The notes under the pieces were generated by a model. It saw nothing but the letters and a program-made list of their open reading frames with translations. It had not been told where the DNA came from and did no database searches. Source: Pseudobythopirellula maris (GTDB lineage Bacteria > Planctomycetota > Planctomycetia > Pirellulales > Lacipirellulaceae). Taken from it: a stretch of 64,000 nt of DNA. Of this stretch, positions 33,273 through 62,036 are shown one piece after another. The DNA is taken from positions 744,001-808,000 of the forward strand of contig NZ_SJPQ01000001.1 of assembly GCF_007859945.1 (NCBI RefSeq), in the 5' to 3' direction. The position numbers were made by a program, and so were the translations under genes. Each line of letters begins with the position of its first letter. Position 1 is the stretch's first letter.

Positions 33273-33350
33273 CTGCCATCGGCTTGCCCGCACCACTCTG
33301 CGAATTGTTTGCTTGTTAGTCCTCTTAAGCTCAGCGCCGATAAGAATTTG

Positions 33351-36155: not shown

Positions 36156-36191
36156 GTGGCCCCCTCAAACTCAATGGTCTGGTGGTCCCCT

Positions 36192-37931
36192 ATGAGCGCT
36201 TTCCTCATCAGGTTGTCGGCGGATGCTCGGTTTTGTCTCGTGGGGTTGTGCCTCATGCTGGCGCCCTCGATAGCGTTTTCGGCTGAGACTGAGCCGGGCG
36301 GCTGGGCGGAGTTCGCGAGCTTCCGCTACGAAGGCCGCGACCCGCGGCGTGAGACAGTCACGGTCGGCGACGGGGAGTACTACAACCCGGTGCTGGCTGG
36401 TTTCTACCCCGACCCGAGCGTTTGCCGCGCCGGCGACAACTATTATCTGGTCAATTCGACCTTCGCCTATTTCCCGGGCGTGCCGATCTTCAAGAGCGCC
36501 AACCTTGTCGATTGGGAGCAGATCGGCCACGTGCTCGACCGCCCCTCGCAGCTCGACCTCGACGGGCTGCCGGTTTCGAGCGGCGTCTTCGCTCCGACCA
36601 TCACATTCCACGAGGGCGTGTTCTACATGATCACGACCAACGTGCGTGGCGTCGGCAATTTCTATGTCACGGCGACCGATCCCGCGGGCCCCTGGTCGGA
36701 CCCCCACCGCTTGTCATTCGACGGCATCGACCCCTCGTTCTTCTTTGACAGCGACGGGCGGACCTACATCGTTCACAACGGGCCGCCCCCCGGGAACCAA
36801 CCGCTTTACGAAGGCCACCGCGCCATCTGGATCTGGGACTTTGAGCCCGCAACCAGAACGGTCGAGAACGGCCGGATCATCGTCAACGGCGGGGTCGATC
36901 TCGCTGAGAAGCCTGTATGGATCGAGGGCCCGCACATCTTCAGACGCGATGGCTGGTACTATTTGAGCTGCGCCGAGGGGGGCACCGGGCCCAACCACTC
37001 GCAGGTCGTCTTTCGGACACGCTCGCTCGACGAGCCATTCCTGCCGAGTCCCCATAACCCGATCCTGACCCAACGCGACCTCGACCCGGACCGCCCTTTC
37101 CCCGTCACCGCCCTGGGCCACGCCGATCTCGTAGAAACGCCCGACGGCGATTGGTGGTCCGTCTTTCTCGGCATCCGCCCGTACGAGAACGGCCTGTCGA
37201 ATCTGGGCCGCGAGACTTTTTTGCTGCCAGTCGAATGGCGAGACGGGTGGCCCACGATCCTCGCCCCCGGCCAGCCGCTCCCGATGGTGGTTGACCGTGG
37301 CGGGACGCCCAGCACGCCCGACATCGAACCCACGACAGGCTCCTTCTCCTGGAGCGACGAATTCGACGCGGAAGAACTCGGTTTGCCCTGGGTCTTTCTG
37401 CGGACGCCGCGAGAAAGGTGGTGGTCGCTTGTCGACAAACCGGGTTCGCTGCTGCTGAAGCCGCGTCCGATCTCGATCGCCTCCCAACCCGATCGATCAC
37501 TCGAGCGGAACGGCAATCCCAGCTTCGTGGGCCGCCGTCTCCAACACGAGGATTTCTCGGCAACGACGCGCCTGATGGCTAATCCGAACTCGGCCGACAG
37601 CGACGCCGGCGTCGCCGCGCTGCAGAACGACGCGAACTACTTCTTCCTCGGCGTCCGCCTGTCCGGAGGCGCCGCTCTGGAGGTGTTTCTAGAACAGAGC
37701 TCTCAACACTCCGATGGCCCGGTGATTGTGGCCCGTGCGCCGCTCGACGGAGTCAACGGCCCGATCGACCTGCGGATCGAGGGCGCAGGCCGAGACTACC
37801 GCTTCCGCTACCGGCTCGATGACGGCGAGTGGAACACCCTAGCCGATGGCGTGGACGGCGGCCTGCTGAGCACCCAGCAAGCGGGCGGCTTTGTCGGCAC
37901 GGTGCTCGGTCTCTACGCCCGAACGCCGTAA
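36192..37931 (+). CDS. Secreted GH43 glycoside hydrolase (beta-xylosidase/arabinofuranosidase type)
   Basis: 579 residues from ATG 36192 (signal peptide FCLVGLCLMLAPSIAFS; GTG 36156 and ATG 36174 are in-frame alternatives). Five-bladed propeller catalytic residues are visible: base D74 (FYPDPSV), pKa-modulating D180 (GIDPSFF) and acid E245 (IEGPHIF). A C-terminal beta-sandwich (about 390-579) with FSWSDEFDAEELGLPWVFLR matches the XynB-type C-terminal domain of two-domain GH43 beta-xylosidases. It would release xylose or arabinose from oligosaccharides. Probably last gene of the GH10-GH2-GH43 unit. Confidence 0.93.
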   Translation: MSAFLIRLSADARFCLVGLCLMLAPSIAFSAETEPGGWAEFASFRYEGRDPRRETVTVGDGEYYNPVLAGFYPDPSVCRAGDNYYLVNSTFAYFPGVPIFKSANLVDWEQIGHVLDRPSQLDLDGLPVSSGVFAPTITFHEGVFYMITTNVRGVGNFYVTATDPAGPWSDPHRLSFDGIDPSFFFDSDGRTYIVHNGPPPGNQPLYEGHRAIWIWDFEPATRTVENGRIIVNGGVDLAEKPVWIEGPHIFRRDGWYYLSCAEGGTGPNHSQVVFRTRSLDEPFLPSPHNPILTQRDLDPDRPFPVTALGHADLVETPDGDWWSVFLGIRPYENGLSNLGRETFLLPVEWRDGWPTILAPGQPLPMVVDRGGTPSTPDIEPTTGSFSWSDEFDAEELGLPWVFLRTPRERWWSLVDKPGSLLLKPRPISIASQPDRSLERNGNPSFVGRRLQHEDFSATTRLMANPNSADSDAGVAALQNDANYFFLGVRLSGGAALEVFLEQSSQHSDGPVIVARAPLDGVNGPIDLRIEGAGRDYRFRYRLDDGEWNTLADGVDGGLLSTQQAGGFVGTVLGLYARTP

Positions 37932-37975: not shown

Positions 37976-40867
37976 TTAGCCGCGACGACGCCTCCGAGTG
38001 GGCAGCACCGCCGCGACCGCCAGCAAGACGAGCGTCCCAGGCTCCGGCACACTCGTCTCGCCAGGCGAGTCGAGCTGTTGCCCGAACTGCGCGACCCACA
38101 TGTCGTAGTCGGCCATGTCGACCACGCCGAAGCTGGCGCCCGATTCGTCGCCCGCGCCGTTCAGCGCCGAGTTGTTGCCTCCCAGGTTGTCACGCCACAC
38201 GGTGAAGTCGGCGGCGTCGACCGAGCCGTCGCCGTTGAAGTCGCCTTGCAGCAAGGGAGCGACCAACGCGTAGCCGACCCCGTCGTACCAGGTGCGTGAG
38301 GCGTTGCCGTTGAGGGTCTCCCAATCGTCGATGAAGACCTGAATGTCATCGCCGTCGCCCACACTCTTGCGGCCCAGGTAGGCCCGATAGAGCAGCAGGT
38401 CGTTGTTGTCGTCGGCGACGATCTCGATCGATTCGAAGCTCTCGGCGTCGGCGTGCTGCGACCCGTAACGCCGGAAGTCCACCAGGTTGTCCTGCTCGAG
38501 GCCGGCCATCAGTCGCCAGTCCTCGTCGTTGTCGCCCCAGAAGTAGGCGAACACGTCGTAGAGCCCCGCATCAAGATCTTCGATCGTCGTGCGCAGCATG
38601 GCGGCGTTCTCGGAGCCCGACTCGTTGGACGCGTAGACGCTGCCGCCGTTGCCGTAGCCGGTGCGCTCGTGCCATTGGTTGTCGTCGGCGCCGGACGCGG
38701 CGGCGGGGCCGGTCGCGCCGATCGCGGCGCCGTTGGTGCGTGTGGTGTTCGAGTCATCGGCGTCGACGTACACGCTCTGGCCGATCACCTCGTCGCGATC
38801 GACGATGCCGACCACCGCCGCGTTGATGTTGTGGGCGGTGTTGTAGTCGCCACGAAACCAGAAAACCGACTGCGGCCCCACGCCGTGGGTGTCGGGCGCG
38901 ATCGGCCTGAGGTTGTCGACCGAAGAGTTCTCGGTGACGGCGGTCCAGTTCCAATCGGAGCCGTCGTACTCGCCCTTGTAGATCTCGTGGTGATCGGTCT
39001 CGGTTTCCCATTCCGGATCACGCGGGTCGTACGGGGTGGAGATGTAGAGCGTGTTCTCGTCTCCCGGGATGAGCGCCCCCAGGCCGGTGTAGTCCTGCTC
39101 CGGGCCGTAGAGCCGCGGCCCCATCTTGGCGATCTCGTGCGACTCCCAGCTCTCGCTGTCGGGGTTCCAACGCGAGAAGTGCAGCCGGTGGTCGATCGGG
39201 TTGTTGGTGCTGCCCGCGTCGGTCGAGCCGTCGGGGTTGTTGCGAGACGTGTACAGCGCCATCAGGTTGCCTTGCGAATCGAGCGCCGCGTCGGTCGTCC
39301 AGAGGCGGTTCTGCCCCTCCCCCAGGGCGTCCGGGGCGTCGACCAGCGTGAAGTCGGTCACGTCGGGCACGGAGCCCGCGCCCGCCGTCACGTTGCTGTC
39401 GAACAGGTTCTCGTCGATCAGGTTCCCTTGCATGTCGAAGGTCTGGCCGCCTTCGATGTAGCCCGAGTAGATGCTGTTGTTGTAGTTGCGAGGGTGCGTC
39501 TCGGTCGTGGTGAAGTAGATGCGTGACTTGCCATCGGAAACGTACTTCGGGTACGCCGAGTAGCCTTGCGCCGACGACTCGAGGAATTGGCCCGCCCACT
39601 CCACCTCGTTGGTGTCCGGGTCGTAGCGGATGATATTCGGCATGTTCTGGCCAGCGCCATTGGTCGACAGCATGCCGTAGCTGCGCGAGATGTTGTAAAC
39701 CTGATCCTCGTCGGACAGGTAGAAGATGTTGTGGTAGCTCACGTTGGCCTGGTTGTCCGAGCCGCCCGGGTGGGTGTTGGCGCCCGGCACGTTGTCGAAC
39801 CAGTTGTAGAGCTTCTCCTCCGACCACGAAGTGCTGTCGCCCGGGTCGGTGCTCACACGGAACCGGGTGAACTCGTCGCCCAATCCGCCGTTGTTCCCGT
39901 GGTTCGCGTACATCGCCAGGTAGCGTCCGTCCGGCAAGACCAGCAGGGCCCCCACGTTGTGGTCGTCGTTCTGGATCTGGGGGTTGCCGCCCACTTGGTT
40001 CGAGAGCTGCGTGCGGACTCGGCGCCCCGTCGACGGGTTGAAGTTGACGACGTCCACGTTGCCCGGGTAGCTGCCGCCCTGCACCGTTTCGTCGAAGCCA
40101 ACCGAGTTGACCAGCACGTTGCCGTTGTTCGGATCGACGATCGTCCGTTCGTCGGTGTACCAGGTCCAGTTGCCGTCGCTGTCGAACTGGATGAGGTTTC
40201 CGTTGACGCGATCGGTGATCATCCCCGGGGGCGGCGGGGGCTGAAGGCTCGCCCCGATCGCGTCGAAGGCAACGTTGCGGGCCGACCCAGAGCTAACCCG
40301 CTCGGCGCCCAGCGAGATCCGCAAGGTCGCGGCGTTGGTCGGCACCTCGGTGGCGCCGAGTTCTTCGATGAACTGCCAGCCGCCGCCGCTCGTGGTTTGG
40401 GCGCCGTAACCTTGGCCAACCGACGCCCCGCCCGAGTCGAAGAAGTCGTAAGCGATCGTGCCTAGGTCTCCCCCGTCGTTGTGGTAATAGGCGTAGGAGA
40501 GGCCCAGGTGCAGATTGCCGAGGCCGATCTCTGCGCTGTGCGGGGTGAGATCGATGTCTTGGTAGAGCAGCCCGCTGTTGGCGTCGCCGCCGATCAAGGA
40601 GCTGGCGTTCGGCAGCCCGCTGTATTGCCAACTGCCCGAGAGAAACTGGTCACTGAGGTAGCCGCTGCCCGGATCGGCGCCTCCCATCGCGGAGTCGCCA
40701 ACCCACAGCGGGTTGCTGCCGGCGGAAACCGTCCACCCGCTCGGCGCCGAAAGCGGCGAGCTGTTCTCAAAGTCGCCATTGTTCACCGTCAATGCGATCT
40801 GCGCGTTCGCACAGGCCGCAGACATACAAAGCACGAACAGCATCATCGTGAAGCGATTAGAAGCCAC
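37976..40867 (-). CDS. Secreted BNR-4-type propeller protein with dockerin and PEP-CTERM tail
   Basis: 963 residues from GTG 40867, chosen because GGGAG lies just upstream and it gives a charged signal peptide (MASNRFTMMLFVLCMSAACA, cleavage ANA-Q); a TTG at 40888 and ATG at 40846 are alternatives. Residues 23-200 are a beta-sandwich starting VNNGDFENSS. A BNR-4-like propeller follows (WTWYTDERTIVDPNNGNVLV, NDDHNVGALLVLPDGRYLAM), a fold shared with PL24/PL25-type ulvan lyases and sialidase-like proteins. Next come a module from VYVDADDSNTTRTNG to RTWYDGVGYALV, a dockerin pair (GDFNGDGSVDAADFTVWRDN) and a PEP-CTERM tail (VPEPGTLVLLAVAAVLPTRR). Polysaccharide binding or cleavage is likely; substrate unknown. 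Confidence 0.82.
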   Translation of the reverse strand: MASNRFTMMLFVLCMSAACANAQIALTVNNGDFENSSPLSAPSGWTVSAGSNPLWVGDSAMGGADPGSGYLSDQFLSGSWQYSGLPNASSLIGGDANSGLLYQDIDLTPHSAEIGLGNLHLGLSYAYYHNDGGDLGTIAYDFFDSGGASVGQGYGAQTTSGGGWQFIEELGATEVPTNAATLRISLGAERVSSGSARNVAFDAIGASLQPPPPPGMITDRVNGNLIQFDSDGNWTWYTDERTIVDPNNGNVLVNSVGFDETVQGGSYPGNVDVVNFNPSTGRRVRTQLSNQVGGNPQIQNDDHNVGALLVLPDGRYLAMYANHGNNGGLGDEFTRFRVSTDPGDSTSWSEEKLYNWFDNVPGANTHPGGSDNQANVSYHNIFYLSDEDQVYNISRSYGMLSTNGAGQNMPNIIRYDPDTNEVEWAGQFLESSAQGYSAYPKYVSDGKSRIYFTTTETHPRNYNNSIYSGYIEGGQTFDMQGNLIDENLFDSNVTAGAGSVPDVTDFTLVDAPDALGEGQNRLWTTDAALDSQGNLMALYTSRNNPDGSTDAGSTNNPIDHRLHFSRWNPDSESWESHEIAKMGPRLYGPEQDYTGLGALIPGDENTLYISTPYDPRDPEWETETDHHEIYKGEYDGSDWNWTAVTENSSVDNLRPIAPDTHGVGPQSVFWFRGDYNTAHNINAAVVGIVDRDEVIGQSVYVDADDSNTTRTNGAAIGATGPAAASGADDNQWHERTGYGNGGSVYASNESGSENAAMLRTTIEDLDAGLYDVFAYFWGDNDEDWRLMAGLEQDNLVDFRRYGSQHADAESFESIEIVADDNNDLLLYRAYLGRKSVGDGDDIQVFIDDWETLNGNASRTWYDGVGYALVAPLLQGDFNGDGSVDAADFTVWRDNLGGNNSALNGAGDESGASFGVVDMADYDMWVAQFGQQLDSPGETSVPEPGTLVLLAVAAVLPTRRRRRG

Positions 40868-41847
40868 GGCCGTCTCCCTGGAATTCAATGGTTGCCGATT
40901 CCGCCCTGCATCATGGCGACTTGAAAAGCATGGTAGCGCGATGCGTGGCCCTGCCCCTGGGCCTTAGTTGAAAAGCAATCGAGAGGTGAAGCTGAACGCT
41001 TCGCAAAGGATGGCTGACCGCCCACCGGCAAGCTGTTGGTCTGCTGGGGCGACAGCGTCATCCGAGGTTCCGATTCCGTGGGTTCATCATAGTGGCTTGA
41101 GAGACTCGCCAATAACGCAGTTGCGCAATTCAATACCGTGAACCCCCACGCCTCGCTGATCACCGTCAAGCGAAGCCCCAGCGAGTAACCTCATTCTGCT
41201 CGTGCTATATCGCCAATTGCGTTGAACGGCGATGATCCTAGCTGGCACTCCCACGAGAGCATCCTGCAAGTTGATTCGCCTACGAATGCCTCAGCGCCTG
41301 GCCAAGGCAACTCGCTTTCGGCGGGCGATCGACCCCGATCCGCGGCAAGCACAACGAGCCTTCGCCAAAGCGCGAAGCACAAACGCGGTTGCATCAATTG
41401 AGCAAATGCATGCCGCGATTGCGGCATTCTGTTGACAGTCGAGCAGCACATCCCCAGTATGGATTCTGGACATGAGAGGCGTGCCCCTTCGCAGGGGGCA
41501 AACGGCAACGGCTACCAAGTTCACAACTCTTTTCTCAAGGCGGCGACACGGAGCCGCACTCGTCATCTCGACACAGTTTTTCTCCATGGGCATGAGCCAA
41601 CCGCTCTTGCCGCGACACACCTTGGGCGCTCTTACGCTTCGCAACGGAGCCGCCCGACACCAGCCCATCCCGTGGGACACGAGCCCCACGTTGGCGCTAT
41701 GTACGTGTTGATTCGTTCGATCGCTCGTGGCGTAAATCGTCTTTCGTCTTCCAGGAATCAACGGAATGTGACTCCCTGCAAGTCAGGTCGAGAGGCGTCA
41801 ACATGCCAATAGAATGCAACCGCTCATCTGATAAGGAAACGTTTCTG
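40868..41847. other. 980-base spacer without a supported gene
   Basis: Short reading frames occur on both strands (for example 41291-41761 minus and 41432-41812 plus), but none shows a recognisable domain, membrane profile or good ribosome-binding site. Near 41833-41839 AAGGAAA serves the downstream DUF1559 gene. The region separates divergent genes and may include a decayed insertion; I cannot prove it. Confidence 0.45.
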
Positions 41848-43026
41848 ATGATCCCATTTGCCTCAAGCAAGCGGATGCGTGCGGCGTTCACGCTGGTCGA
41901 GTTGCTCGTTGTGATCGCAATCATCGGCATCCTCGTAGCGTTGCTGCTACCGGCCGTCCAGGCGGCCCGTGAGGCCGCACGACGCACGCAATGCACCAAC
42001 CAACTGAAGCAATTCGGCCTGGCCCTGCACAACCACCACGACACCTTCAAGCTGCTGCCCGGCGGCTCGGCCTTGCCCTCCATCTGGGACAACGGGAACC
42101 TCCGCTACTGGAGTGACGGCGAACAAGTCGAGTGGACTTGGGTGACATCGATCATGCCTTTCATCGAAGAGCAAACGCTCAAAGACTCATTCCACATGAC
42201 ATACGGCAATGGAGATTGCTGGCCGAACTCGACCGGGATCCCCAGCGGCGCCTCGTTCGCCAACGTCGACCTCGTGGACAAGAGAGCTTTCCCAAGTCTG
42301 CTCTGCCCTTCCGACCCGATAGCGGCGCGGCCGATCAAGATCCGTCTCACCAACCCGCAAGGGGGAGAAATCATGGGCAGCGACGTGAATCCGCCTTCCG
42401 CGCCGGGGGTCTCTTACGTCGTCTCGATGGGCCCGACGATCCCCGATTTTTGCATGTACCCCCGCGAGTCGAACAACATCAACACGGAGGAAAACAACAG
42501 CGCGAGCGAGACACGCCGCGTCTGCATGGGGCGAGCCATGGGCTCCCAGCCATCCGGCGGCGCCGCGGCGCCGTGCATGGGAGGCAAGGCCGGCTCGGCG
42601 AGCGGCTGTGTCGCCGCTGCCGACAAGTTCGGCGGGGTCGGCATGTTCAATCGCAACCCGAACGGCAAGGCGTTTCGCAAGGTCTCCGACGGCCTCAGCA
42701 AAACCTTCATGGGCGGCGAGACGCTCTCGATGCACAACAATCGCAACTGCGCCTACTGCACCAACTTCTTGATGGCGTCGACCAACACCCCGATCAACGA
42801 GAAGCACAAGTGGGACGACCCCGATCTGATCGACATGAGCGACGGTTTCGGCGAGCCGGGCTACGCCTTCACCTCGGGCTTCAAGAGCGACCACCCAGGC
42901 GGCGCCAACATGCTGCTGGGCGACGCCTCGGTCCACTTTGTCAACGAGAGCATCGACTACTTTTCATGGAACGAGTACGGAACCATCGCCGGGCAAGAGG
43001 CGCCAGACTATATCGTAGGGAACTAG
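41848..43026 (+). CDS. DUF1559 protein with prepilin-type N-terminus
   Basis: 392 residues. The N-terminus carries a type IV-pilin-like processing and methylation motif ([20 protein letters not shown], cleavage after residue 13), then [20 protein letters not shown], the DUF1559 signature. The C-terminus ends with the usual [20 protein letters not shown] motif. ATG 41848 is chosen over 41803 because AAGGAAA lies about eight bases upstream and the signal is then at a normal distance. DUF1559 proteins are abundant in planctomycetes and thought to be surface pseudopilins; individual roles are unknown. It stands before two PEP-CTERM genes, with no shared operon evident. Confidence 0.93.
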
Positions 43027-43311: not shown

Positions 43312-46302
43312 ATGTTACGGCATCTTTCGTTTTTGCTTATCACAGGCTGCCTCATCGGCCCCGCCGCAAGCGTCATGGCGCAAGGCTTGATTTACGTCGA
43401 CGCCAAAGATGGCTACTACCCGAACAACAATCTCTACAGCACCTCCGAAGGGGCGATCGGGACCTTGATCGAGCCTGGCAACAATGACTTCGTCAACGGC
43501 GACGGCCGTTTCCCTGAAGACGGCGCCTGGCACTGGGCAAACTTCGGTTCCACCTGGGGTTCGTCCACCGAGGTGATGAACGTTTGCGGCGTTGAGTGCA
43601 CCAGCGTGTACGAGTCACTCGAGGAGGACGCGCCTCTGATCGGCATGCGACTCGGAATCGAGCCGGGGGCGCAATACGCCCTCACGCCGGGAGCCGAGTA
43701 CGATGTTTACGTCGCCTACTGGGGCGACGGGGGCGGCAACTGGGGCGTGCAAGCGGGCCTCGACTCCGCGGCGATGACCCTCTTTGACTTCGACGGAGCC
43801 GAAGGCGCGGTCCAAGGCTCCTTCGCCAGCAGTGGCGCCTGGGCGGTCAAGCCGCTCGACAACCGCACGGACAACAATTCGAGTGAAGACGAATTCTACC
43901 CGGCCAGCGACGACAACGATAACCCGTTCTTGGACAACACCCCCGGCGCCCCGGCCGGCTCGGCGCGTAACCTGCGCGTCGGCTTGGTCGGCACGACGAT
44001 GGCCAACGCCTCGGGTCATATCGACGTGTTCATCGACGACAAAGACAGCCTGGAAGCGGGGCAACGTTCGTTCTTCGACGGCCTGGCGTTCGTTCCGGCC
44101 GGCACCCCTGTTTTCACCACGGGAGCGTTGGACCGTAGCACCGGCGGACTGACCATCACCAACCCCACACCAGCCGATTTCCAGATCAACGCCGTGAGGG
44201 TCACTTCGCCCGCGGGCAGCTTGAACGCGAATCTGTGGAACTCGATCACCGAAGACGGCTTGATCAACGACCCCGATGGCGACTGGGCCATCACTTCCCC
44301 GGTGAGCGACAGCGAAGTAGAGCTCGCCGAGAGCGACGCCGGCGACTTGGACGGCGTGACCTGGCTGAGCGGCGGCGCCACGCTGGACCTCGGGAACGTC
44401 TGGCGCAAGGGCATCTTCGAGGACATCACGATTGAGCTCGACGTCGTAGGCGGCGGCACCGTGGTGATTACTCCTGAATACACGGGCACGCCGTTCGAGA
44501 CGGGCGATTTTGACGCCGACGGTGACATCGACGCCGACGATTACATCCGCCTGGTGCAAGGGCTCCACGTCGAACACGCGACCACATCAGCCGCGTACGC
44601 TTTCGGCGACATCAACGGCAGCGGCGCGGTGGACCGCAGCGACGTCTTGGCGTTTGCAGAAAACTTTAACCTGTTCAACGGTTCGGGCACTTTTGCCGAG
44701 ATGGTCGAGGGCCTGTCGGTCCCCGAGCCCTCGACCGGACTGCTCTCTCTGGCCGCCACTGGACTGCTGGCCTTGCGTCGTCGCCGTCGGGCGCCCGTCG
44801 CATCGCCCGCTTCGCGGGTCGCTAACAAGGGGGTGCTCGCTGCGGCTATGCTCGTGGCGTTGCTCGCCGCCAAGCCGGTCTCAGCGGTCGAGGTGGTCAA
44901 CTGGGAGATCGACCCGCTCGTTCCGAACAGCGGCTCCAATCTTAGTAACGAAGCAACCAGCTCCCCCACGGTTGGGTTGATTGACGGCAGCAACGTCCCG
45001 GAGCTCGACAGCGCCGATCAAACCGCGATTTGGGGCTCGATTCCAATCGACGTCAACCTGACCAACGGCCAAGAGGTGGTGCTGCGTGGTTCGGTCCACC
45101 TCCACGGCGGCGAGAGCATGAACAACGGGGCGTTCCGTTGGGGCATCTTCCAGGACGACACCCCCGACGAGGGAGAACCCACGGGCAGCTGGCTGGGATA
45201 TCTGGCGAGCAGCTCGTCGGGCGGCGGCGGTGGGGTTGGCGATGGCCGATTGACGGCCAAGAACCCCGACGCCGGTGACTGGGAAACCGCCACGCCGATC
45301 TCGACCAACGGCACCGCCACCGAGCTGGGTGGAGGCGGCCGCATCTACAACCTCTCCGTCGGCGGCACGACCGACGGTTACGCCGACGGCGTGTACGATT
45401 ACGGCATCACGATCGGCCGCTACGGCGACGAAGTGACCGTGAGCTCATTCCTCAAGCTTGCTCACCCCGAAGGTGACTACAACGACAACGGCAAGGTGGA
45501 CGCGGCCGACTTCACGGTTTGGCGTGACAACCTGGGAACGGGCGCCGCACTGCCAAACCGCAGCCTCGCCAGCCATGGCGACGTGAGCATGGCCGATTAC
45601 GACGTGTGGGTGAACAACTTCGGAAACGAGTACGACCACGTCCTGGGTGGCGGCACGGACACGAACTCGATCCCGCACCCGCTGTTCCCGGTCGCCCAAG
45701 TGGAAGACCCCGAAACCATGGAGCTGGTGGACGCCGAGGTCACGCCTCACTTGTCCTTCCAGTACAATCGGGTCGCTTTCTTGCTGGCGGATCACCTGAA
45801 CGCCGATTACGCCCAGTTCCAGGACACCGAGATCGCGGCTCAAGCCATCGAGTCCGTCACGCTCGAGGTCAACGCCGCGACGGGCGAGGCCACGTTCAAG
45901 AACGTCTCGAGCACCGACTTCTCGATGACCTATTACGAGATCACGAGTCCCTCGGATTCGCTGGTCGAGAGCAATTGGGACAGCCTCGCCCCCGACGCGG
46001 TGATCGATGGCGTCGAATGGGATCGCGCGGCGGGGTCGAGCGACTCGATCCTTTCGGAGGTCAACCTGTTCGGCGCCCCGGCCTCGCTACCGGTCGGTGT
46101 GACGCCGATCAGCCTCGGTAATATCTGGGACACCGGCGGCGAGCAGGATTTGACCCTGTTCTTCATCGACGACGAAGGGGCGTTGATCCGGGGCATCGTC
46201 AACTACGTGGGGGCTTCGGTCGCCGTGCCCGAGCCTTCGGCGATCGTGCTCCTCTCCCTTGCGGCCGCCATGGCGGCCTCGATCCGGCGGCGGGGCTGCT
46301 GA
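43312..46302 (+). CDS. Tandem PEP-CTERM protein: two secreted proteins fused in one frame
   Basis: 996 residues. First half: signal peptide (LSFLLITGCLIGPAASVMAQ), a module beginning LIYVDAKDG and ending FFDGLAF, a beta domain with VRVTSPAGSLNANLWNS, a dockerin-like pair (GDFDADGDIDADDYIRLVQG) and a complete PEP-CTERM tail (VPEPSTGLLSLAATGLLALR then RRRR, residues 470-493). Second half: a signal-peptide-like segment (GVLAAAMLVALLAAKPVSA, 507-525), a new beta domain, a second dockerin pair (GKVDAADFTVWRDN), another domain like that of the first half (YEITSPSDSLVESNWDS) and a second PEP-CTERM tail (VPEPSAIVLLSLAAAMAASI then RRR). The natural reading is fusion of two adjacent genes by loss of a stop. 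Function unknown. Confidence 0.85.
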   Translation: MLRHLSFLLITGCLIGPAASVMAQGLIYVDAKDGYYPNNNLYSTSEGAIGTLIEPGNNDFVNGDGRFPEDGAWHWANFGSTWGSSTEVMNVCGVECTSVYESLEEDAPLIGMRLGIEPGAQYALTPGAEYDVYVAYWGDGGGNWGVQAGLDSAAMTLFDFDGAEGAVQGSFASSGAWAVKPLDNRTDNNSSEDEFYPASDDNDNPFLDNTPGAPAGSARNLRVGLVGTTMANASGHIDVFIDDKDSLEAGQRSFFDGLAFVPAGTPVFTTGALDRSTGGLTITNPTPADFQINAVRVTSPAGSLNANLWNSITEDGLINDPDGDWAITSPVSDSEVELAESDAGDLDGVTWLSGGATLDLGNVWRKGIFEDITIELDVVGGGTVVITPEYTGTPFETGDFDADGDIDADDYIRLVQGLHVEHATTSAAYAFGDINGSGAVDRSDVLAFAENFNLFNGSGTFAEMVEGLSVPEPSTGLLSLAATGLLALRRRRRAPVASPASRVANKGVLAAAMLVALLAAKPVSAVEVVNWEIDPLVPNSGSNLSNEATSSPTVGLIDGSNVPELDSADQTAIWGSIPIDVNLTNGQEVVLRGSVHLHGGESMNNGAFRWGIFQDDTPDEGEPTGSWLGYLASSSSGGGGGVGDGRLTAKNPDAGDWETATPISTNGTATELGGGGRIYNLSVGGTTDGYADGVYDYGITIGRYGDEVTVSSFLKLAHPEGDYNDNGKVDAADFTVWRDNLGTGAALPNRSLASHGDVSMADYDVWVNNFGNEYDHVLGGGTDTNSIPHPLFPVAQVEDPETMELVDAEVTPHLSFQYNRVAFLLADHLNADYAQFQDTEIAAQAIESVTLEVNAATGEATFKNVSSTDFSMTYYEITSPSDSLVESNWDSLAPDAVIDGVEWDRAAGSSDSILSEVNLFGAPASLPVGVTPISLGNIWDTGGEQDLTLFFIDDEGALIRGIVNYVGASVAVPEPSAIVLLSLAAAMAASIRRRGC

Positions 46303-46605: not shown

Positions 46606-47625
46606 ATGAACATACGATCGAAACTTATTGCGGCTACGCTCGGCGTCGGCCTCATGGCGATGGCGTCGAGCGCATCGGCCGCATTCACCTACTTCGACGC
46701 CGATCTGATCGGCTACACCTTGGCGGGCAGCAAAACCTCGCCCGAGACGCCCGTAGCGCCGAACACGACGATGGTCAACGGCGACCCGGTTCCCTATGTG
46801 ATCGGTGTCGGTTCGGGTGGCACGGGTTGGGACAACTTGTGGCGTATCCGGGAGAACGATGGCTTTGGAAACAGGGCAACGGGCAGCCCGGTGGTCGCCG
46901 GCGGAACCAAGCCCTCGGCCGACAATGGCAGCGGCGAGCAACTTATCGGCGACATCATCGAGGCCCGAGGCGACTTTGGGGCCGACAACTCGGAGAACGT
47001 TCCTACGCTGAAAACGACCGTTGATGTCGACCCGTCTGACGAGGGCCAGGAAAAAGCGGTCTACGCCTTCTTTTGGACCGCGGGGACCGCGGGTTGGCAG
47101 ATGAGCGCCTCGCTGACGAATAGCAGCAACTTGGGCCCCCCCACCCCATCGAACCCCCTGCAGCCGGTGTTCCAGGCGGGCGCCACGGGGCAAGTCGCTT
47201 ACGGTGAGACCCTGGGCGAGTCGAACACAACCCACCTCTTCAACGTGTTCGACGCGAGCACCGAGAGCGGCACGCCGCCGGTTGACGCGGTTTTCCAGAA
47301 CCCGCTGTACGCGAGCAACGACTTGCTGCTGACCAGCTCCGATGGGTCGAACAGCGGCGGCGCCGCCGGTGACCGACAGCTCTGGGCCGCCTTCCTGGGC
47401 AATGTGACGCTCGGCGACGAGCTCTCCGTGTTCATCAGTGAAGGCTTTTCGCTCGGCAACCTGTCGGGCGGAAACAACCGTACTTGGTACGACGGCATCG
47501 GATACGGCGACCCCATCCAGGGACTCAGCGAGTTGCCGGAGCTCGTCATTCCGGAGCCGTCGGCGATCGCCCTGCTGAGCGTTGTTGGAATCACGTGCCT
47601 CGGACGCCGCCGCAACCGAAGCTGA
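46606..47625 (+). CDS. PEP-CTERM protein of unknown function
   Basis: 339 residues from ATG 46606; ATG 46597 is in frame but only one base from GAGG, while 46606 has normal spacing. Signal peptide (LIAATLGVGLMAMASSASA, cleavage near ASA-A). The body begins FTYFDADLIGY and ends NRTWYDGIGYGDP, resembling modules in the BNR-4 protein and the tandem PEP-CTERM protein. Tail: IPEPSAIALLSVVGITCLGR then RRNR, a standard PEP-CTERM sorting signal recognised by an exosortase and then cleaved or anchored. A strong terminator follows. No enzyme motif seen. Confidence 0.85.
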   Translation: MNIRSKLIAATLGVGLMAMASSASAAFTYFDADLIGYTLAGSKTSPETPVAPNTTMVNGDPVPYVIGVGSGGTGWDNLWRIRENDGFGNRATGSPVVAGGTKPSADNGSGEQLIGDIIEARGDFGADNSENVPTLKTTVDVDPSDEGQEKAVYAFFWTAGTAGWQMSASLTNSSNLGPPTPSNPLQPVFQAGATGQVAYGETLGESNTTHLFNVFDASTESGTPPVDAVFQNPLYASNDLLLTSSDGSNSGGAAGDRQLWAAFLGNVTLGDELSVFISEGFSLGNLSGGNNRTWYDGIGYGDPIQGLSELPELVIPEPSAIALLSVVGITCLGRRRNRS

Positions 47626-51615: not shown

Positions 51616-52078
51616 TTGGCGGTGCGCCTCAGCTGTAGAGTGAAATCTTGAAAAGTGTCGCCTGCCCCGGTTTGGTTGCTCGAGCTGATCGAGACACGCA
51701 CCAGGGGGCCGCGGAAGATGATCGACACGATCTTCGCCGGATCATCCCTGAGCAATCTAGCATGTTAACCTGAAGCGAAGCAGCCGCGTGGGGTTCGATC
51801 CGCACGCCAAATATTACAACGCCGCCAAGCTAGGTCGCGGGCGCGGGGCGGCGGGGTTGGCGAGGCGTTATCGATTGTTCGGCTGCCCAGAAACTTGAGA
51901 GACGCCCCCTCTCTCCCGCAGCGGGCATACGACATTGATTTGCGCAATTGCGAAGCCGAAAAATGGCATACTCCCTTCTCGTAATCGATCCGCGTTGCGG
52001 AGCGGCTGCCGAAAGGTTTGCCGCCCGCCGACGCCGACTCATCTCTCCCAATCGATTCGACCCCTTATCCACAGCGCC
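51616..52078. other. Divergent spacer before the GH115 gene
   Basis: 463 bases between the divergent MFS/spermidine synthase and GH115 genes. No gene or RNA supported. A reading frame from 51935 runs into GH115 but adds a non-secretory 48-residue extension and is not preferred. Confidence 0.4.
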
Positions 52079-54682
52079 ATGCCCATTCTCCGAACCGGCT
52101 GCCGGTTTCTGTTTCTGATTCTCTTTGTGGCGAGCGGCTCCCACGCCCACGGCCAAGAGTTGCCTCGCATCACCGAGGGCGGCGACGGCTTTGCCGTGAT
52201 TGCCAGCGGCCAACCCGCCGCCGTATGGGTTGATCCCGCGGCGCCGGTCGGCGTGCAACGCGTCGCCGAATGGTTTGCCGACGACCTGGAGCGGCTGACC
52301 GGCGTTCGGCCGTCGGTGACATCGGGCGAACAACCTCCCGCCGAGCCCTGCGTTCTCGTAGGCGTGCTGGGCTCCGGGGGGGTGATCGACCGCGTCGTTG
52401 AGTCGAAGAAAATCGACACGAGCGAGGTGAAAGGCAAGCGCGAGGCGTCGCTCACGCAGTCCGTCGAGCAGCCCGCCGAGGGGCTCGATAACGCGCTCGT
52501 GATTGCCGGGAGCGACAAGCGCGGCGCCATTTACGGCCTGCTCGACCTGTCGCGAGCGATGGGCGTCTCGCCCTGGTACTGGTGGGCCGACGCGCCCGTC
52601 GAGCGCCGTGAAAACGCTTATTGCGCCCCCCAGGCCCACGTTCGTCCGGAACCGAAAGTCCGCTACCGCGGCATCTTCATCAACGACGAGGCGCCCGCCT
52701 TGTCGAACTGGGCGAGCGACAACTTTGGCGGCTTCAACAAGGACTTCTACGCCAACGTTTACGAGCTGATCCTCCGCAACCGCGGCAATTTCTTGTGGCC
52801 CGCCATGTGGGGCAACGCGCTGTTCGACGACGACCCCGACAGCCAGCAACTGGCTGACGAGTTGGGTGTCGTGCTGAGCACCTCGCACCACGAGCCGATG
52901 ATGCGGGCCCACGCCGAGTGGTCGCGGTACGGCGAAGGCTCGTGGAATTTCGAGCGTAACCCCGAGAAGCTCAAGGAGTTCTGGAGCGAGGGCATCCGCC
53001 GCATGGGCGACCGCGAGAGCGTGGTCACCCTCGGTATGCGAGGCGACGGCGACAAGCCGATGACCCAGAGCGCCAACATCGATCTCCTGCAGCGGATCGT
53101 CGCCGCGCAACGCGAGATCATCGCCGAGGAACGCGGCGAGGACCACACAAAGACCCCGCAGGTTTGGGCCCTCTACAAAGAGGTGCAGGAGTACTTTGAC
53201 CGGGGCATGCGTGTCCCCGACGACGTGATCCTCTTGCTCTGCGACGACAACTGGGGCAATGTTCGCCGCCTCCCCCGCCCCGACGAGCCGCGCCACCCCG
53301 GCGGTTACGGCATGTATTACCACTTCGATTACGTCGGCGATCCGCGCAACTACAAATGGACCAACACGAACTCCCTGCCGCGGGTGTGGGAGCAAATGAA
53401 CCTCTGCTGGCGACACGAGGTCGACCAGATCTGGGTCGTCAACGTCGGCGACATCAAGCCGATGGAGGAGCCGATCGACTTCTTCCTCACGCTGGCGTAC
53501 GACCCCGACCGGTTCCCCGCCGAGAGCATCGGCGAGCGATTGGACGCCTGGCGCGTGGGATGGGCCCGCGAGCAATTCGGCCCCGAGAAGGCCGAGGAGG
53601 TCGCCTCGCTGCTGCGCCGCTACGCCAAGTATGTCGCCCGCCGAACGCCGGAGCAGCTCGACGCGAACGTCTACAGCCTTACCAACTACGACGAATGGCC
53701 ACGCGTGGTCAACGAGTGGCGTGACCTGATGCGCGACGCCGAACGGATCGAGAAAGCGATTCCCGATCGCTCGCAGTCGGCCTACTACCAACTGGTGCTG
53801 CACCCGATCCTGGCCGTTGGAAACTTGCACGAGCTCTACTTCGCCGTGGCCGAGAACCACGCCCTCGCCGACCAGGGCGACCCGGCGGCCAACAAGCGTG
53901 CGGACGACGCCGAGCGGCTGTTCGCCCGCGACCAGGAGCTGACCCGCCGGTACCACGAACTCGAAGGCGGCAAGTGGAACCACATCATGAGGCAGGTCCA
54001 CATCGGCTACACCAGCTGGAGAGACCCGCGAGAGCAAGTGATGCCCGAAGTCCGCCGCGTGGCGGCCGACGCCGCGAGTGGCCAAACGCCGTCTGCCGCT
54101 CAGGACGCCAAGGACGATCACCTGCCGCCCAACGCGCGGGGCTTTGTCGAACAGAACGGCTACGTTTCGATCGAGGCGCCGAGCTTCTCCCGAGCGACCG
54201 AAGCCGACGGGGTCCGCTGGCGAGTGGTTGCCGATCTGGGCCGTGTCGGCTCGTCGGTGATCAGCACGCCGGTCGCCGCCGCGGCTTCCGCCGTGGGCGA
54301 GGGCCCTTGCCTCGAGTACCCGATCTTTCTCACCAGCAGCGGCCCGGTGAGTGTTGAAGCCCACCTCTCTCCGACACTCGACTTCTACGGCAACGACGAG
54401 CACGGCATCCGCTTCGGCGTGTCGATCGACGACGCCGAGCCGGTCGTGGTCGACATGCACGCCGACCGCAGCACGAACCACTCGAACCCCAATCCGTGGC
54501 GCCGCCGGGTTTCGGCCGCGATCCACGTCGCCGCAACGCCTTCGATCGACGCGACCGCCGGAGCGCACACGCTGCGGTTCTGGCGCATCGACCCGGGGGT
54601 CGTGCTGCAAAAATTGGTCGTCAAAACCGGCGAGGTGGCCCCGAGCTACCTCGGACCGCCAGAGAGCCCCCGGGCCGACTGA
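52079..54682 (+). CDS. Secreted GH115 xylan alpha-1,2-glucuronidase
   Basis: 867 residues from ATG 52079, which gives a signal peptide (CRFLFLILFVASGSHAHG). The GH115 family core is clear: VRYRGIFINDEAPALSNWAS, NFLWPAMWGNALFDDD, LGVVLSTSHHEPMMRAHAEW, LGMRGDGDKPM, LCDDNWGNVRRLP and VWVVNVGDIKPMEEPIDF-type blocks in the expected order. A C-terminal beta-sandwich (about 700-860) is typical. Members remove 4-O-methyl-glucuronic acid from xylan, which fits the nearby GH10 gene and the uronate catabolism genes. Stop codon is followed by a hairpin. Confidence 0.93.
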   Translation: MPILRTGCRFLFLILFVASGSHAHGQELPRITEGGDGFAVIASGQPAAVWVDPAAPVGVQRVAEWFADDLERLTGVRPSVTSGEQPPAEPCVLVGVLGSGGVIDRVVESKKIDTSEVKGKREASLTQSVEQPAEGLDNALVIAGSDKRGAIYGLLDLSRAMGVSPWYWWADAPVERRENAYCAPQAHVRPEPKVRYRGIFINDEAPALSNWASDNFGGFNKDFYANVYELILRNRGNFLWPAMWGNALFDDDPDSQQLADELGVVLSTSHHEPMMRAHAEWSRYGEGSWNFERNPEKLKEFWSEGIRRMGDRESVVTLGMRGDGDKPMTQSANIDLLQRIVAAQREIIAEERGEDHTKTPQVWALYKEVQEYFDRGMRVPDDVILLLCDDNWGNVRRLPRPDEPRHPGGYGMYYHFDYVGDPRNYKWTNTNSLPRVWEQMNLCWRHEVDQIWVVNVGDIKPMEEPIDFFLTLAYDPDRFPAESIGERLDAWRVGWAREQFGPEKAEEVASLLRRYAKYVARRTPEQLDANVYSLTNYDEWPRVVNEWRDLMRDAERIEKAIPDRSQSAYYQLVLHPILAVGNLHELYFAVAENHALADQGDPAANKRADDAERLFARDQELTRRYHELEGGKWNHIMRQVHIGYTSWRDPREQVMPEVRRVAADAASGQTPSAAQDAKDDHLPPNARGFVEQNGYVSIEAPSFSRATEADGVRWRVVADLGRVGSSVISTPVAAAASAVGEGPCLEYPIFLTSSGPVSVEAHLSPTLDFYGNDEHGIRFGVSIDDAEPVVVDMHADRSTNHSNPNPWRRRVSAAIHVAATPSIDATAGAHTLRFWRIDPGVVLQKLVVKTGEVAPSYLGPPESPRAD

Positions 54683-55066: not shown

Positions 55067-55948
<882 letters not shown>

Positions 55949-57619: not shown

Positions 57620-59992
57620 TCACGGCGTGACGCGGAACCCGACGGACTGAACCTCGGACGAGTTGGCCCCCAGCATCAGGGTGAACTGGCCCGGCTCGAC
57701 GGTCCATTGCATGTCGCGGTCGTAGAAGGCCAGGTCGTCGGGGCCCAGCGTGAACGAGACCTCGGCGGTCTCTCCGGGTGGGAGCGTCACGCGCCGGAAC
57801 CGCTTGAGCTCTTTGACCGGCCGGGTCACGCTGCTTTGCTCGTCGCGCAGGTAGAGCTGCACCACCTCGTCGCCGGGCCGGTCGCCCTTGTTGGTCACTT
57901 CAGTGGTCACCGTGATCGAGCCGTCCGCACCGATCTCGGGCGACGACAGGCGGGGCGCCGAAATCTCGAAGGTCGTGTAGCTAAGCCCCCAGCCGAACGG
58001 GTACAGCGGGTCGGTGGAGCTGAACAGATACTGACGGCGGGCGGTCGGCTTGTGGTTGTAAAAAATCGGCAGCTGACCCACCGAGCGAGCCACACTCACC
58101 GGCAGCTTGCCGCCGGGGTTCGTGTCGCCGAACAACGCCCCCGCGATGGCGTTGCCCGTTTCTTGACCGAGATACCAGCAGTCGAGGACGGCGGCCGTCT
58201 TCTCGGCGATGGCCCCGATGGCGAGCGGCCGCCCGTGGATCAGCGTGATGACGGTCGGCTTGCCCAAGGCGAGCACCGCCTCGCAAAGAGCTTCTTGCTG
58301 GCCAAACATACGCAAATCAGAGCGGTCGCCGAGGTGCTTCTCTGAGTACCCCTCACGGCTCGTGTGCTCGTTGCCGCCCACGGCGAGGATCACGATATCG
58401 GCGCGTCGCGCGACTTCGACCGCCGCCTCGATCCGCTTCGCGTTCTCGGCGGGATCCGAAGGGGTCACTTCGTGCGTGTAGAGGGCCCGTCCCTCGGTGA
58501 TGCGGCAGCCTTCGGCGTGCTCCACCGAAACCTCGCCCGCGTCGATCGGCCCACGCAAGCGTTGGCGGATTCCCTCGAGCAGGCTCACGGCGTAAGGGGG
58601 CTCGTCGCTGTAGCCGCCGAGCAACGTCTCCGCCGCGTTGGGCCCGATGACCGCGATCCGCTGCGACTTGTTGGGGTCGAGCGGCAACAGCCCGTCGTTC
58701 TTGAGCAGGACGATCGCTTTGTCCGCCGCCTCGCGGGCGAGCTCGCGCGCCTCCGCGTTGCAGGTGACACGCTCGGCCGCGTCCGGATCGGCGTAGGGGT
58801 CGTCGAACAACCCGGCCAGGAACTTGGCCCGCAGCAGGCGGGCGACCGAACGATCGATCAGCTCTTCCTCGAGGAGCCCCTCACGCACGGAATCGACCAA
58901 GGTCGGGAAGGCCTCGGGCTTGGGCAGTTCGATGTCGACCCCGGCCTCGACCGCGAGCCGGGCCGCTGCGGCTTGCGATTCCGCCACGGCGTGGCGGGTC
59001 TCCAGCTCTTTGACGGCCGAATAATCGCCGACGACATAACCGCGGAACCCCCACTCGTCGCGGAGGATGTCGCCCAGCAGCCAACGGTTGGCGTGCGACG
59101 GCACGCCGTCGATCTCGTTGTACGACGCCATCACGGCCATCACGTCGGCCTGCTGAACCGCCCTGCGGAACGGCGGGAAGAACGCCTCGCGGAGGACCCG
59201 CTCCGAGATGTTCGCCGGGCCGATGTTCGTGCCGTTCTCCGGTTCGCCGTGGCCGGTCATGTGCTTGAGAGTCGCGAACACGCGGCCCTCGGCCAGCGGT
59301 TGGGGGTCGTTCTGTCGGCGGTCGCCTTGCAGGCCGCGCACGGCGGCCATGCCCATCATCGAAACCAGGTAGGGGTCCTCGCCAAAGGTCTCCTCGATGC
59401 GTCCCCAGCGGGGGTCACGCGCCACGTCCACCACGGGCGAGAGTGCTTGCCTCACGCCGCGCACGGCGATCTCTCTGCCGATGACCCGATTGACTCGCTC
59501 CACGAGGTCCGGGTCCCACGTGCTCGCCAGCGCGATCGCTTGCGGGAAGTGGGTAGCCCCACGCGCTTTGTAGCCGTGGAGTCCCTCTTCGTGGAACATC
59601 GCCGGGATGCCGAGCCGTGTTTCCTCGATCAGGTGCCGCTGGATCTGGTTGACGAAATCGGCCGTCTCGCGCGGCCCGCGGGCCGGTTCGAAGCCGACGT
59701 CGCCCTCGCCCTTGATGTCGCTGGGGCGGGCGATCTGCCCGATGCCGTGCGGCATCGCCTCGCGTGCCCGGTCGCTGTTGAACGAGCCGTCGGCGTTCGG
59801 AAACGATCCCTTTTCGTCCCACACGCACGTCATCTGGGCGACCTTCTCCTCGAGGGTCATCCGGCCGAGCAGGTCGGCCACCCGGCGATCGACGCTCAGG
59901 ATAGGGTTCTTGTAAGGCGGCGCCTCTTGGGCGTTCGCCTCGGACAATGCGATGGTCAGGATCGATGCGATCACGCATAGCAAATGGATCAT
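57620..59992 (-). CDS. Secreted GH3 beta-glycosidase (probably beta-xylosidase)
   Basis: 790 residues with signal peptide (cleavage near ANA-QE). GH3 N-terminal barrel with RDPRWGRIEETFGEDPYLV and nucleophile D323 in YVVGDYSAV, the (alpha/beta) sandwich with AVIGPNA and VGGNEHTSREGYSEKHLGDR carrying candidate acid/base residues, and the fibronectin-III-like C-terminus (TNKGDRPGDEVVQLYLRDEQ). Closest in style to bacterial xylosidase/glucosidase Xyl3A types. It lies 67 bases after the xylonate dehydratase gene on the same strand, suggesting a shared transcript. It would finish xylo-oligosaccharides to xylose. Confidence 0.93.
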   Translation of the reverse strand: MIHLLCVIASILTIALSEANAQEAPPYKNPILSVDRRVADLLGRMTLEEKVAQMTCVWDEKGSFPNADGSFNSDRAREAMPHGIGQIARPSDIKGEGDVGFEPARGPRETADFVNQIQRHLIEETRLGIPAMFHEEGLHGYKARGATHFPQAIALASTWDPDLVERVNRVIGREIAVRGVRQALSPVVDVARDPRWGRIEETFGEDPYLVSMMGMAAVRGLQGDRRQNDPQPLAEGRVFATLKHMTGHGEPENGTNIGPANISERVLREAFFPPFRRAVQQADVMAVMASYNEIDGVPSHANRWLLGDILRDEWGFRGYVVGDYSAVKELETRHAVAESQAAAARLAVEAGVDIELPKPEAFPTLVDSVREGLLEEELIDRSVARLLRAKFLAGLFDDPYADPDAAERVTCNAEARELAREAADKAIVLLKNDGLLPLDPNKSQRIAVIGPNAAETLLGGYSDEPPYAVSLLEGIRQRLRGPIDAGEVSVEHAEGCRITEGRALYTHEVTPSDPAENAKRIEAAVEVARRADIVILAVGGNEHTSREGYSEKHLGDRSDLRMFGQQEALCEAVLALGKPTVITLIHGRPLAIGAIAEKTAAVLDCWYLGQETGNAIAGALFGDTNPGGKLPVSVARSVGQLPIFYNHKPTARRQYLFSSTDPLYPFGWGLSYTTFEISAPRLSSPEIGADGSITVTTEVTNKGDRPGDEVVQLYLRDEQSSVTRPVKELKRFRRVTLPPGETAEVSFTLGPDDLAFYDRDMQWTVEPGQFTLMLGANSSEVQSVGFRVTP

Positions 59993-60059: not shown

Positions 60060-62036
60060 TCACTCGTTTCGTCGCACGGCGTCGCGGATCATCTTGGCGT
60101 CGTACACGCAGCCGCCCCATGCCCCGCCGCTGAGGGTTTGCAGCGCGGCCCAGAGTCGGGTGTCGTCGTGCAGCCCTTCGGCTTCGGCCAGGTCGTCGCG
60201 CGAAGGGCGCCGGTCGAGCTCCTCGGCTCCCCACGCCTGGTCGCGAGTCCCGTGCGTGTCGCCGATCAGGTTGACCGACCCCGACGCCTGAGCGGGATCG
60301 ATCGTGATCTCGATCTGGTCGCCGTCGAGCAGCTTTCCGATCGGCCCGCCGGCGAGGCCCTCGGGGCCGATGTGGCCGATGCACGCCCCGGTCGAGACGC
60401 CCGAGAACCGGGCGTCGGTAATCAGAGGGACCTGCTTGCCCCACGCCAGATGCTTGAGCGCCGAGGTCAGCTGATAGGTCTCCTCCATGCCCGTGCCGAT
60501 CGGCCCCGCCCCGGCAAGCACGATCACATTGCCGGGCGACAAGCCGTGCTCTTCGGGCGATTTGATGGCCGCCATCGCCGCGGCCTCGCTGGTAAAGACC
60601 CGCGCGGCCCCCGTGTGGCGGTAAACGCCCTCGCGAAACAGCGAGCGGTCGATCGAGGTGGCCTTCACCACGGCCCCGTCCGGGGCGACGTTGCCGGTGG
60701 GGAACGCCAGCGTGCCGGTGAGGCCTTGCTCCGCGGCGCGCTCGGGCGAGTAAATCACGTCGTCGGGGTCGACGCCGTCGGACTGGCGGAGTTGCTCCCG
60801 CACCCGCCACCGGCGGTCCGACTTCTCCCACGCGTCGAGCACCTTGTCGAGCGGCTCGGCGAGCGCGGTTTTGGTCGACGTGTTGAGCAGGCCGAGACGA
60901 CGGAGGTGCAACATCACCTCCGGAACCCCGCCGGCGAGAAAGACGCGCACGGTCGGGTGGTCGGCGGGCCCGTTGGGCAAGACGCTCACCAGCCGTGGCG
61001 TGGTGCGGTTGATCTCGGCCCAATCGTCGACCGTCGGCCGCCTGAGGCCGGCGGCGTGGGCGATCGCCGGCACGTGCAGCAGCAAGTTGGTCGATCCCCC
61101 GAAGGCGGCGTGGACCACCATCGCGTTCCTGATCGATTCTTCGGTCACCATATCGGCGGTCGTCAGACCGGCGGCCCGTTGGTTGGCGACCGCGCGGGCC
61201 GAGCCGCGCGCCAGCTCGAGCCACACGGGCTGCCCGCTCGGCGCCAACGCCGAGTGGGGCAGCGAGAGGCCCAGGGCCTCGCCGATGACCTGCGACGTGG
61301 CGGCCGTGCCGAGGAACTGGCATCCGCCCCCCGGCGTGGCGCACGCCCGGCAGCCCAGCTCGGCCGCCTCGCGCAGCGTGAGCTCGCCGTGGCTGTAGCG
61401 GGCGCCGATGGTCTGTATCCTGCCGGCGTCTTCGCCCGAGACGGGGGGCAGCGTGACCCCGCCCGGGACAACCACGCCCGGCAGGTCGGGCGATCCGGCG
61501 AGCGCCATCAGCATGGCGGGGTGGCCCTTGTCGCAAGTGGCGACCCCGATCACGCCCTTGCGTGTGGGCAACGAGCGGATGAGCCGACGCAGCACGATCG
61601 CCGCGTCGTTGCGGTAAGCCAGGCTGTCGTACATGCCGCGGGTCCCCTGCGAACGCCCGTCGCACGGGTCGCTGCACGCGGCGGCGAACGGGATGCCGCC
61701 CCCGGCGCGGATCTCGCGGGCCGCGGCTTCGACCAGTAATCCGACCTCCCAATGACCGGTGTGGTAGCCCAGAGCGATCGGCTCGCCGTCCGGCGCACGG
61801 AGCCCTCCCTGCGTGCTGAGGACCAGGTACTCATCACGGCCGAGCTCGGCGGGGTTCCACCCCATGGCCGCGTCTTGGGTCCAGCCGAAGAGGTCGCCGC
61901 TCGGCCGGCTCCGCAGGGCGGAGTCGGTCAGCGGCAACGAGCCCGCGGGCCCCTTGGCCGAGGTGACGACCGCCGTCAGCTCGGGCCCGCTCGGGAACCA
62001 GTCGTCCTGCGCCAAGGTGGGTTGCTTAGCCGCCAT
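60060..62036 (-). CDS. D-xylonate dehydratase (YjhG/YagF type, IlvD/Edd family)
   Basis: 658 residues. It follows the E. coli YjhG/YagF pattern nearly end to end: [96 protein letters not shown]. The iron-sulfur ligands expected for IlvD/Edd enzymes are C125, C168 and C239. It converts D-xylonate to 2-keto-3-deoxy-D-xylonate. It starts seven bases after the GntP permease stop, so the two are co-transcribed; E. coli pairs yjhG with a GntP-type gene in the same way. Cytosolic. No E. coli-type YjhH aldolase is adjacent; a divergent FAH-family gene is. Confidence 0.92.

Follow-up and report, generated by a model that had tools for sequence, protein, structure and literature searches.

Three secreted proteins encoded in the window, which is the whole 64,000-nucleotide stretch of Pseudobythopirellula maris DNA analysed here, have a module of about 170 residues in common. 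We consider it likely that this module represents an unnamed family of secreted, non-catalytic β-sandwiches resembling carbohydrate-binding modules (CBMs), which attach an enzyme, or the surface of the cell, to a polysaccharide. The family recurs in Planctomycetota and Verrucomicrobiota, often fused to a BNR_4 propeller, and its fold is predicted with confidence.

The module and its carriers

Copy A (46684–47508, forward strand) covers residues 27–301 of a 339-residue PEP-CTERM protein, and its long insertions bring it to 275 residues. The gene (46606–47625, forward strand) encodes an N-terminal hydrophobic stretch, the module as the main domain and a PEP-CTERM tail (47548–47619). Copy B (43387–44100, forward strand; 238 residues) is the first domain (residues 26–263) of a 996-residue tandem PEP-CTERM protein, the gene of which (43312–46302, forward strand) encodes the module, dockerin-like repeats and two PEP-CTERM signals (44716–44790 and 46222–46293). 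Copy C (38261–38779, reverse strand; 173 residues) spans residues 704–876 of the 970-residue BNR_4 protein P0003 and lies C-terminal to the propeller. Its gene (37976–40888, reverse strand) encodes an N-terminal region with no Pfam match, the propeller, the module, a weak dockerin-like stretch and a weak PEP-CTERM tail (37982–38053). Copy C is the compact and most typical form, and insertions occur in A and B. The PEP-CTERM profile TIGR02595 gives 19.7 bits on copy A's gene (cut-off 16), which stays below the Pfam PEP-CTERM cut-off; copy B's gene exceeds the cut-off in both libraries, and the tail of the BNR_4 protein is just at the TIGR02595 cut-off (16 against 16 bits) and under that of Pfam. 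Gene 43312–46302 reads as two consecutive PEP-CTERM proteins, one complete signal lying mid-protein (residues 469–493) and the other at the end; two PEP-CTERM matches are also found in other long frames of the genome, of 1570 aa on contig C3 and 1431 aa on contig C2.

The local alignments of A with C and of B with C score 107 and 101, against 37±6 and 39±7 for shuffles of one partner, and neither score was reached by any of 1000 shuffles. The score of A with B (57 against 41±7, reached by 31 of 1000 shuffles) is weak, and A and B are therefore linked mainly via C. An independent profile of 16 modules that include neither A nor B (A2) was run on the window's own genome and found copy B with an E-value of 7.0e-16 and copy A in two pieces (8.0e-7 and 1.8e-4), while profile A4, which includes A itself, matches A at 2.8e-22. 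The original prediction of one module common to three secreted proteins is borne out by the shuffles and the independent profile, and the coordinates it gave for the three regions stand. The same two results rule out a chance likeness of low-complexity secreted proteins. A fourth copy, absent from that prediction, is present in the genome (G000:C3:547687-548181); it is 47% identical to C and is fused to a second BNR_4 propeller.

The motifs first picked out by eye (Y/FxDA, the FW strand, AGL, LG, VFIDD and RTWYDGxGY) are all conserved across 59 members, with deviations such as S-E in A where C has D-D and S-F-F in B where C has T-W-Y. The N-terminal part of the family consensus reads Y-V-D-A, N-T, D..W..R and E..P.L.TT..GL..G..Y.V...FW......W...AGL, and a variable middle is followed by R.L....LG......G.I.V.IDD and then R-T-W-Y-D-G-V-G-Y. 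R162, G136 and G167 are invariant in 59 of 59 members, and D6, A7, N11, T12, W36, R39, T64, Y74, W88, W164, Y165 and D166 are nearly so, D6 being kept in 56 and D166 in 55.

One genome per species (84,980 species) was scanned for the motif R[TV]WYDG[VL][GS][YAF], an exact pattern that misses diverged copies such as B and that returned 42 stretches, 36 of which encode a relative, in 33 loci. By record title, these loci comprise 11 from Planctomycetota, 20 from Verrucomicrobiota, one from a KSB1 MAG and one from an unnamed bacterium, and the family is thus mainly one of Planctomycetota and Verrucomicrobiota (31 of the 33 named loci). Verrucomicrobiota carriers include Roseibacillus, Haloferula, Limisphaera and two MAGs labelled Akkermansia muciniphila. 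Profile A2 has matches in 8 of 392 genomes sampled from the phylum; within the window's family, module matches occur in 15 of 43 genomes, with at most 10 copies per genome.

A BNR_4 propeller is found on 23 of 52 module ORFs and in 22 of 33 loci, as counted by module and propeller profiles on mechanical ORFs (opened at the first ATG, GTG or TTG) from a seed that is itself propeller-fused, which favours finding fusions. The module is C-terminal in 13 of these fusions; in the other 10, all of which come from Verrucomicrobiota records, it is N-terminal. A Pfam survey of 39 of the 52 ORFs revealed as other partners a BD-FAE/abhydrolase esterase (L057, L075), Laminin_G_3 (L053, L073), CotH (L064) and FecR (L077), together with Ig and TSP3 repeats, dockerin, PEP-CTERM and Por_Secre_tail. 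Since the carriers end in PEP-CTERM, dockerin or Por_Secre_tail, the module would work outside the cell. Short ORFs of about 220–280 residues consist of the module and a PEP-CTERM-like tail with little else (L052, L057, L058, L062, L064, L070, L075), and copy A's protein is of this stand-alone kind. Tandem copies also occur. The shuffled positions and the stand-alone copies support the view that the module would fold as an autonomous unit.

The 43 genomes of the window's family hold 34 propellers and 50 modules. A module lies within 2 kb of 17 of the 34 propellers, and 32 of the 50 modules have a propeller at most 20 kb away, whereas uniform placement would put about 0.9 of them that close. 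The module is present in 10 of 16 genomes with a propeller and in 5 of 27 without one (Fisher p 0.007, kinship ignored).

Several carriers have unusual architectures. In the KSB1 MAG, a propeller–module fusion (L047:6150-8456) carries Por_Secre_tail, a type IX secretion signal, in place of PEP-CTERM, which suggests a transfer with a swap of the sorting tag. Three proteins of about 360–380 residues (L046:4350-5420, L059:192-1334 and L069:7863-9002) contain the module and, after it, another region of some 100 residues, which has '..YWQW' near its end and no Pfam match. Three PEP-CTERM-type proteins of about 1385–1640 aa (L049:1398-5555, L054:8939-13438 and L166:11297-16210) are encoded near a propeller gene and have one confident module each; in those of L049 and L054, Pfam gives PATR repeats and PEP-CTERM only.

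Predicted fold and named families

The AlphaFold2 model of copy C (59 rows) is all-β, with a pLDDT of 90.0 and a pTM of 0.88, and confidently predicts a β-sandwich of the galactose-binding-like/jelly-roll group. The model of copy A (pLDDT 71.6, pTM 0.77, 40 of 275 residues below pLDDT 50) is of the same all-β kind and draws the same class of matches, so the two copies that were folded do not have unrelated folds. The best Foldseek match of copy C is MiXBM (7ehg; E 2.1e-4, TM 0.48/0.58, 10% identity), followed by CBM35, C-terminal parts of GH115, CBM6 and other lectin-like sandwiches. In VIA-align, copy C is best superimposed on the CBM35 part of a GH26 (3zm8; Z 10.2, 3.1 Å, 121 aligned, residues 8–130) and then on residues 905–1039 of xanthan lyase 6f2p (Z 10.1). 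The CEX esterase 6hfz (Z 9.6), the CBM36 7ay3 (Z 9.4), the CBM35 4qb2 with glucuronic acid (Z 9.1) and 7ehg_G (Z 9.0) follow, with 4qb2, 2w47 and others also at Z 8–9, and 76 of 996 chains have a Z of at least 8. Copy A matches the same class with lower values (6f2p 7.3, 7ehg 7.0; also CBM35 and CBM36), and none of 994 chains has a Z of 8 or more. Non-sugar jelly rolls, namely Cry toxin domains, ephrin receptors and meprin, are among the matches too, and the fold alone is therefore no proof of sugar binding.

CBM84/MiXBM (7ehg) and the C-terminal domain of the Paenibacillus xanthan lyase (6f2p, 905–1039) are β-sandwiches like that of the module, and each is appended to a polysaccharide lyase, which we count as a further likeness. 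However, the identity is only about 10–16%, neither is matched in the PDB profile searches, and the module exceeds the 7ehg chains in length by about 40 residues. A review places MiXBM with a PL8 xanthan lyase from Microbacterium and gives CBM84 as the xanthan-binding module of this lyase (PMC10881899); xanthan, the ligand of MiXBM, has glucuronosyl side chains (PMC11002231). The CBM35/CBM36/CBM6 group shares its fold with the predicted module (3zm8, 7ay3, 4qb2), but CBM35 and CBM6 show no profile–profile similarity to it, with hhalign probabilities of 0.2 and 0.4 against small local sets of 7 and 5 rows, respectively. The domain 5 of GH101 (PF21466, endo-α-N-acetylgalactosaminidase) is matched below threshold by 4 of 59 members (best E 0.048), and 3ecq appears with a Z of 5.8 in copy A's structural list; however, the family cut-off is never reached and the enzyme context differs.

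None of the 59 members reaches the cut-off of any Pfam family. Sub-threshold Pfam matches are to fn3 in 7 of 59 (best E 0.017) and to the GH101 domain, and further ones are to single CBM_4_9, DUF or unrelated families. NCBIfam yields isolated single matches at chance level only. CBM35 (PF16990) is not matched by any of the 59 members even at E 1, CBM6 (PF03422) is matched by none of them, and no CBM family is reached at cut-off. PDB sequence searches with copy C and with a 3-row alignment returned nothing up to E 10, and profile A4 (59 rows) returned 14 sequences up to E 10, which are short fn3-like stretches and chance rows; 3sik in this list was dismissed as chance. The CBM84 structure 7ehg is absent from the 14 sequences, which was the sole sequence route tried for CBM84. 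The fn3-like matches span about 32 columns (best E 1.5e-4, to fibronectin). Homology to fn3 was rejected because fold and length differ, and the stretch is read as a common strand motif, L.TTI.GL.PG..Y.V. A literature search by title or abstract start, which is blind to subscription papers, preprints and CAZy, found no paper describing the module, and none of the papers compared mentions BNR_4 together with Planctomycetes. The statement that the module has no named family thus holds in Pfam and NCBIfam, the libraries compared. Judged by its sequence against these two libraries, the module is a family of its own with a predicted CBM-like fold, apart from CBM35 and CBM6 as far as tested, and probably founds a new CBM family.

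The partner propeller and its locus

The BNR_4 (PF15892) propeller of P0003 occupies 38789–40246 on the reverse strand (Pfam 42.5 bits; alignment A6). His310, His330, Tyr385 and Arg402 of P0003 are invariant across all 15 propellers that were aligned, and the two histidines form a His-x19-His motif with a spacing of 20. The PL25 ulvan lyases contain the same Pfam domain and a similar His/His/Tyr/Arg set: SH2L_Ulv3 uses His95, Tyr160 and Arg176, and His115 is among its predicted substrate-binding residues (PMC13193363). The distance from the second His to Tyr is 34–55 in the propellers versus 45 in SH2L_Ulv3, and that from Tyr to Arg is 17–22 versus 16. In contrast to the characterised PL25 lyases, which are single-domain according to the same paper (PMC13193363), the partner propellers carry the module. 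The propeller profile search of the PDB found no PL24 or PL25 chains and hence no ulvan lyase, which leaves residue spacing as the sole basis of the lyase reading; this spacing suggests that the partner propeller may have lyase chemistry. The first approximately 180 residues of the BNR_4 protein (40247–40798, reverse strand), which precede the propeller, have no Pfam match; their NNGDFE start may resemble that of CBM_4_9-type domains.

Pfam identifies on the forward strand UxuA (28880–29971), GH10 (31197–33272), GH2 (33309–36155), GH43 with a xylosidase C-terminal domain (36156–37931) and GH115 (51935–54682), and on the reverse strand a GDSL esterase/lipase (30048–30854), a short-chain dehydrogenase (SDR; 55067–55948), GH3 (57620–59992), an ILVD/EDD dehydratase (60060–62036) and a GntP permease (62044–63423). 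GH10 is a xylanase, GH115 is an α-glucuronidase, GH43 and GH3 are xylosidases, and UxuA belongs to the glucuronate pathway; given these roles, the window locus is a glucuronoxylan-type set. The PL25-like residue set in propeller 38789–40246 is present despite this xylan-type locus.

Much of this set is kept next to close orthologues of the propeller–module gene in two other genomes. GH115, GH2, GDSL, SDR, AraC and UxuA lie beside the gene both in G406 (propeller 81% identical) and in G437 (76%), which has GH10 and GH3 as well. G423 (81%) has a partial set, with GH3 and a distant GH43, and no such catalytic genes were found within the fetched stretch in G396:C1 (83%) and G397:C12 (69%). The short GH10 matches in the latter two and elsewhere cover 70–116 residues of the 691-residue query and are probably to the query's tail. 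At the distant fusions (G000:C3, G393:C11 and G421:C94), tblastn detected no counterpart of the catalytic xylan genes in the window. The neighbours in sampled loci are mixed, such as a fucosidase with a glucose dehydrogenase (L063) and a ricin-type lectin with LamG (L066), and some have no polysaccharide link, such as a thioredoxin-like protein with TsaD (L061) and an FG-GAP/peptidase (L067). Because paralogues occur without the catalytic xylan genes, the ligand probably varies across the family; xylan is a likely ligand in the window locus but not across the family as a whole.

The window protein encoded at 41803–43026 is presumably a DUF1559 pilin-like protein. A gene like it was found by tblastn in 6 of 8 fused regions, in both regions with the module further off and in none of 6 regions where the propeller has no module, region lengths being different (the regions compared include L164, L166, L171, L172, L173, L183, L184, L197 and L199). 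DUF1559 genes are common in Planctomycetes.

Proposed function and alternatives

Carbohydrate binding, at which the original prediction had hinted, is inferred from the predicted fold and from the company that the module keeps. On the BNR_4 protein, the module would hold a polysaccharide-active propeller, probably of lyase type, on its polymer. In the case of the short PEP-CTERM proteins, like that of 46606–47625, the same kind of binding site would be displayed at the cell surface or matrix, and the displayed modules may keep the polymer and its products near the cell. At the window locus, this polymer would likely be a glucuronoxylan-type hemicellulose. It is possible, though we regard it as rather doubtful, that the module is a new Planctomycetota–Verrucomicrobiota CBM family for uronic-acid-bearing polymers, that together with BNR_4 propellers it makes up an as yet undescribed lyase system that acts on glucuronoxylan-like polymers, and that the free PEP-CTERM-anchored modules are surface glycan-binding proteins, in which case their role would parallel that of SusE/SusF of Bacteroidota.

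The ligand might instead be a matrix component, such as the exopolysaccharide that the cell itself makes, in which case the module would fix enzymes and surface proteins in a biofilm rather than on a food polymer. PEP-CTERM sorting has been described as exopolysaccharide-associated (PMC1569441), 82 PEP-CTERM matches are found in the genome, and several of the carriers consist of a short PEP-CTERM protein that lacks an enzyme part. We nevertheless consider this unlikely, given the propeller of polysaccharide-active type on 23 of the 52 carrier ORFs, the same fusion with Por_Secre_tail instead of PEP-CTERM (L047) and the hydrolases kept in the orthologous locus. A fibronectin-III-like or Ig-like structural spacer, which provides distance or stability and binds nothing, would account for the fn3 matches below threshold (7 of 59 members) and the 32-column fn3-like PDB matches. 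However, the module has about 170 residues and a predicted fold nearer to CBMs than to fn3, stand-alone proteins contain hardly anything else, and the aromatic and charged residues W36, R39, W88, R162, W164, Y165 and D166, whether buried or exposed, are nearly invariant; a spacer thus appears improbable.

That the module is so often fused to a single type of enzyme, and that the R-T-W-Y-D-G motif is highly conserved, with R162 and G167 in all 59 members, could also be expected if the module were itself catalytic or an integral accessory domain for the BNR_4 active site and not an autonomous binder. This is very hard to reconcile with a module that may precede or follow the propeller, occurs in tandem or by itself, and is also joined to unrelated partners. 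Propellers often lack a neighbouring module too: 15 of 34, some of them on short contigs, have none on the contig within 20 kb. We retain a secreted, non-catalytic, CBM-like module as the likely reading.

Among polysaccharide degraders, the Planctomycetota and Verrucomicrobiota are important, and many of their large secreted PEP-CTERM proteins lack recognised domains. As a small soluble domain of 170 residues, the module is a target for binding assays, and the BNR_4 propeller group is flagged as probable new polysaccharide-active enzymes. A module profile would annotate dozens of secreted PEP-CTERM proteins, including those of Roseibacillus, Haloferula and Aeoliella isolates and of Akkermansia-labelled MAGs.
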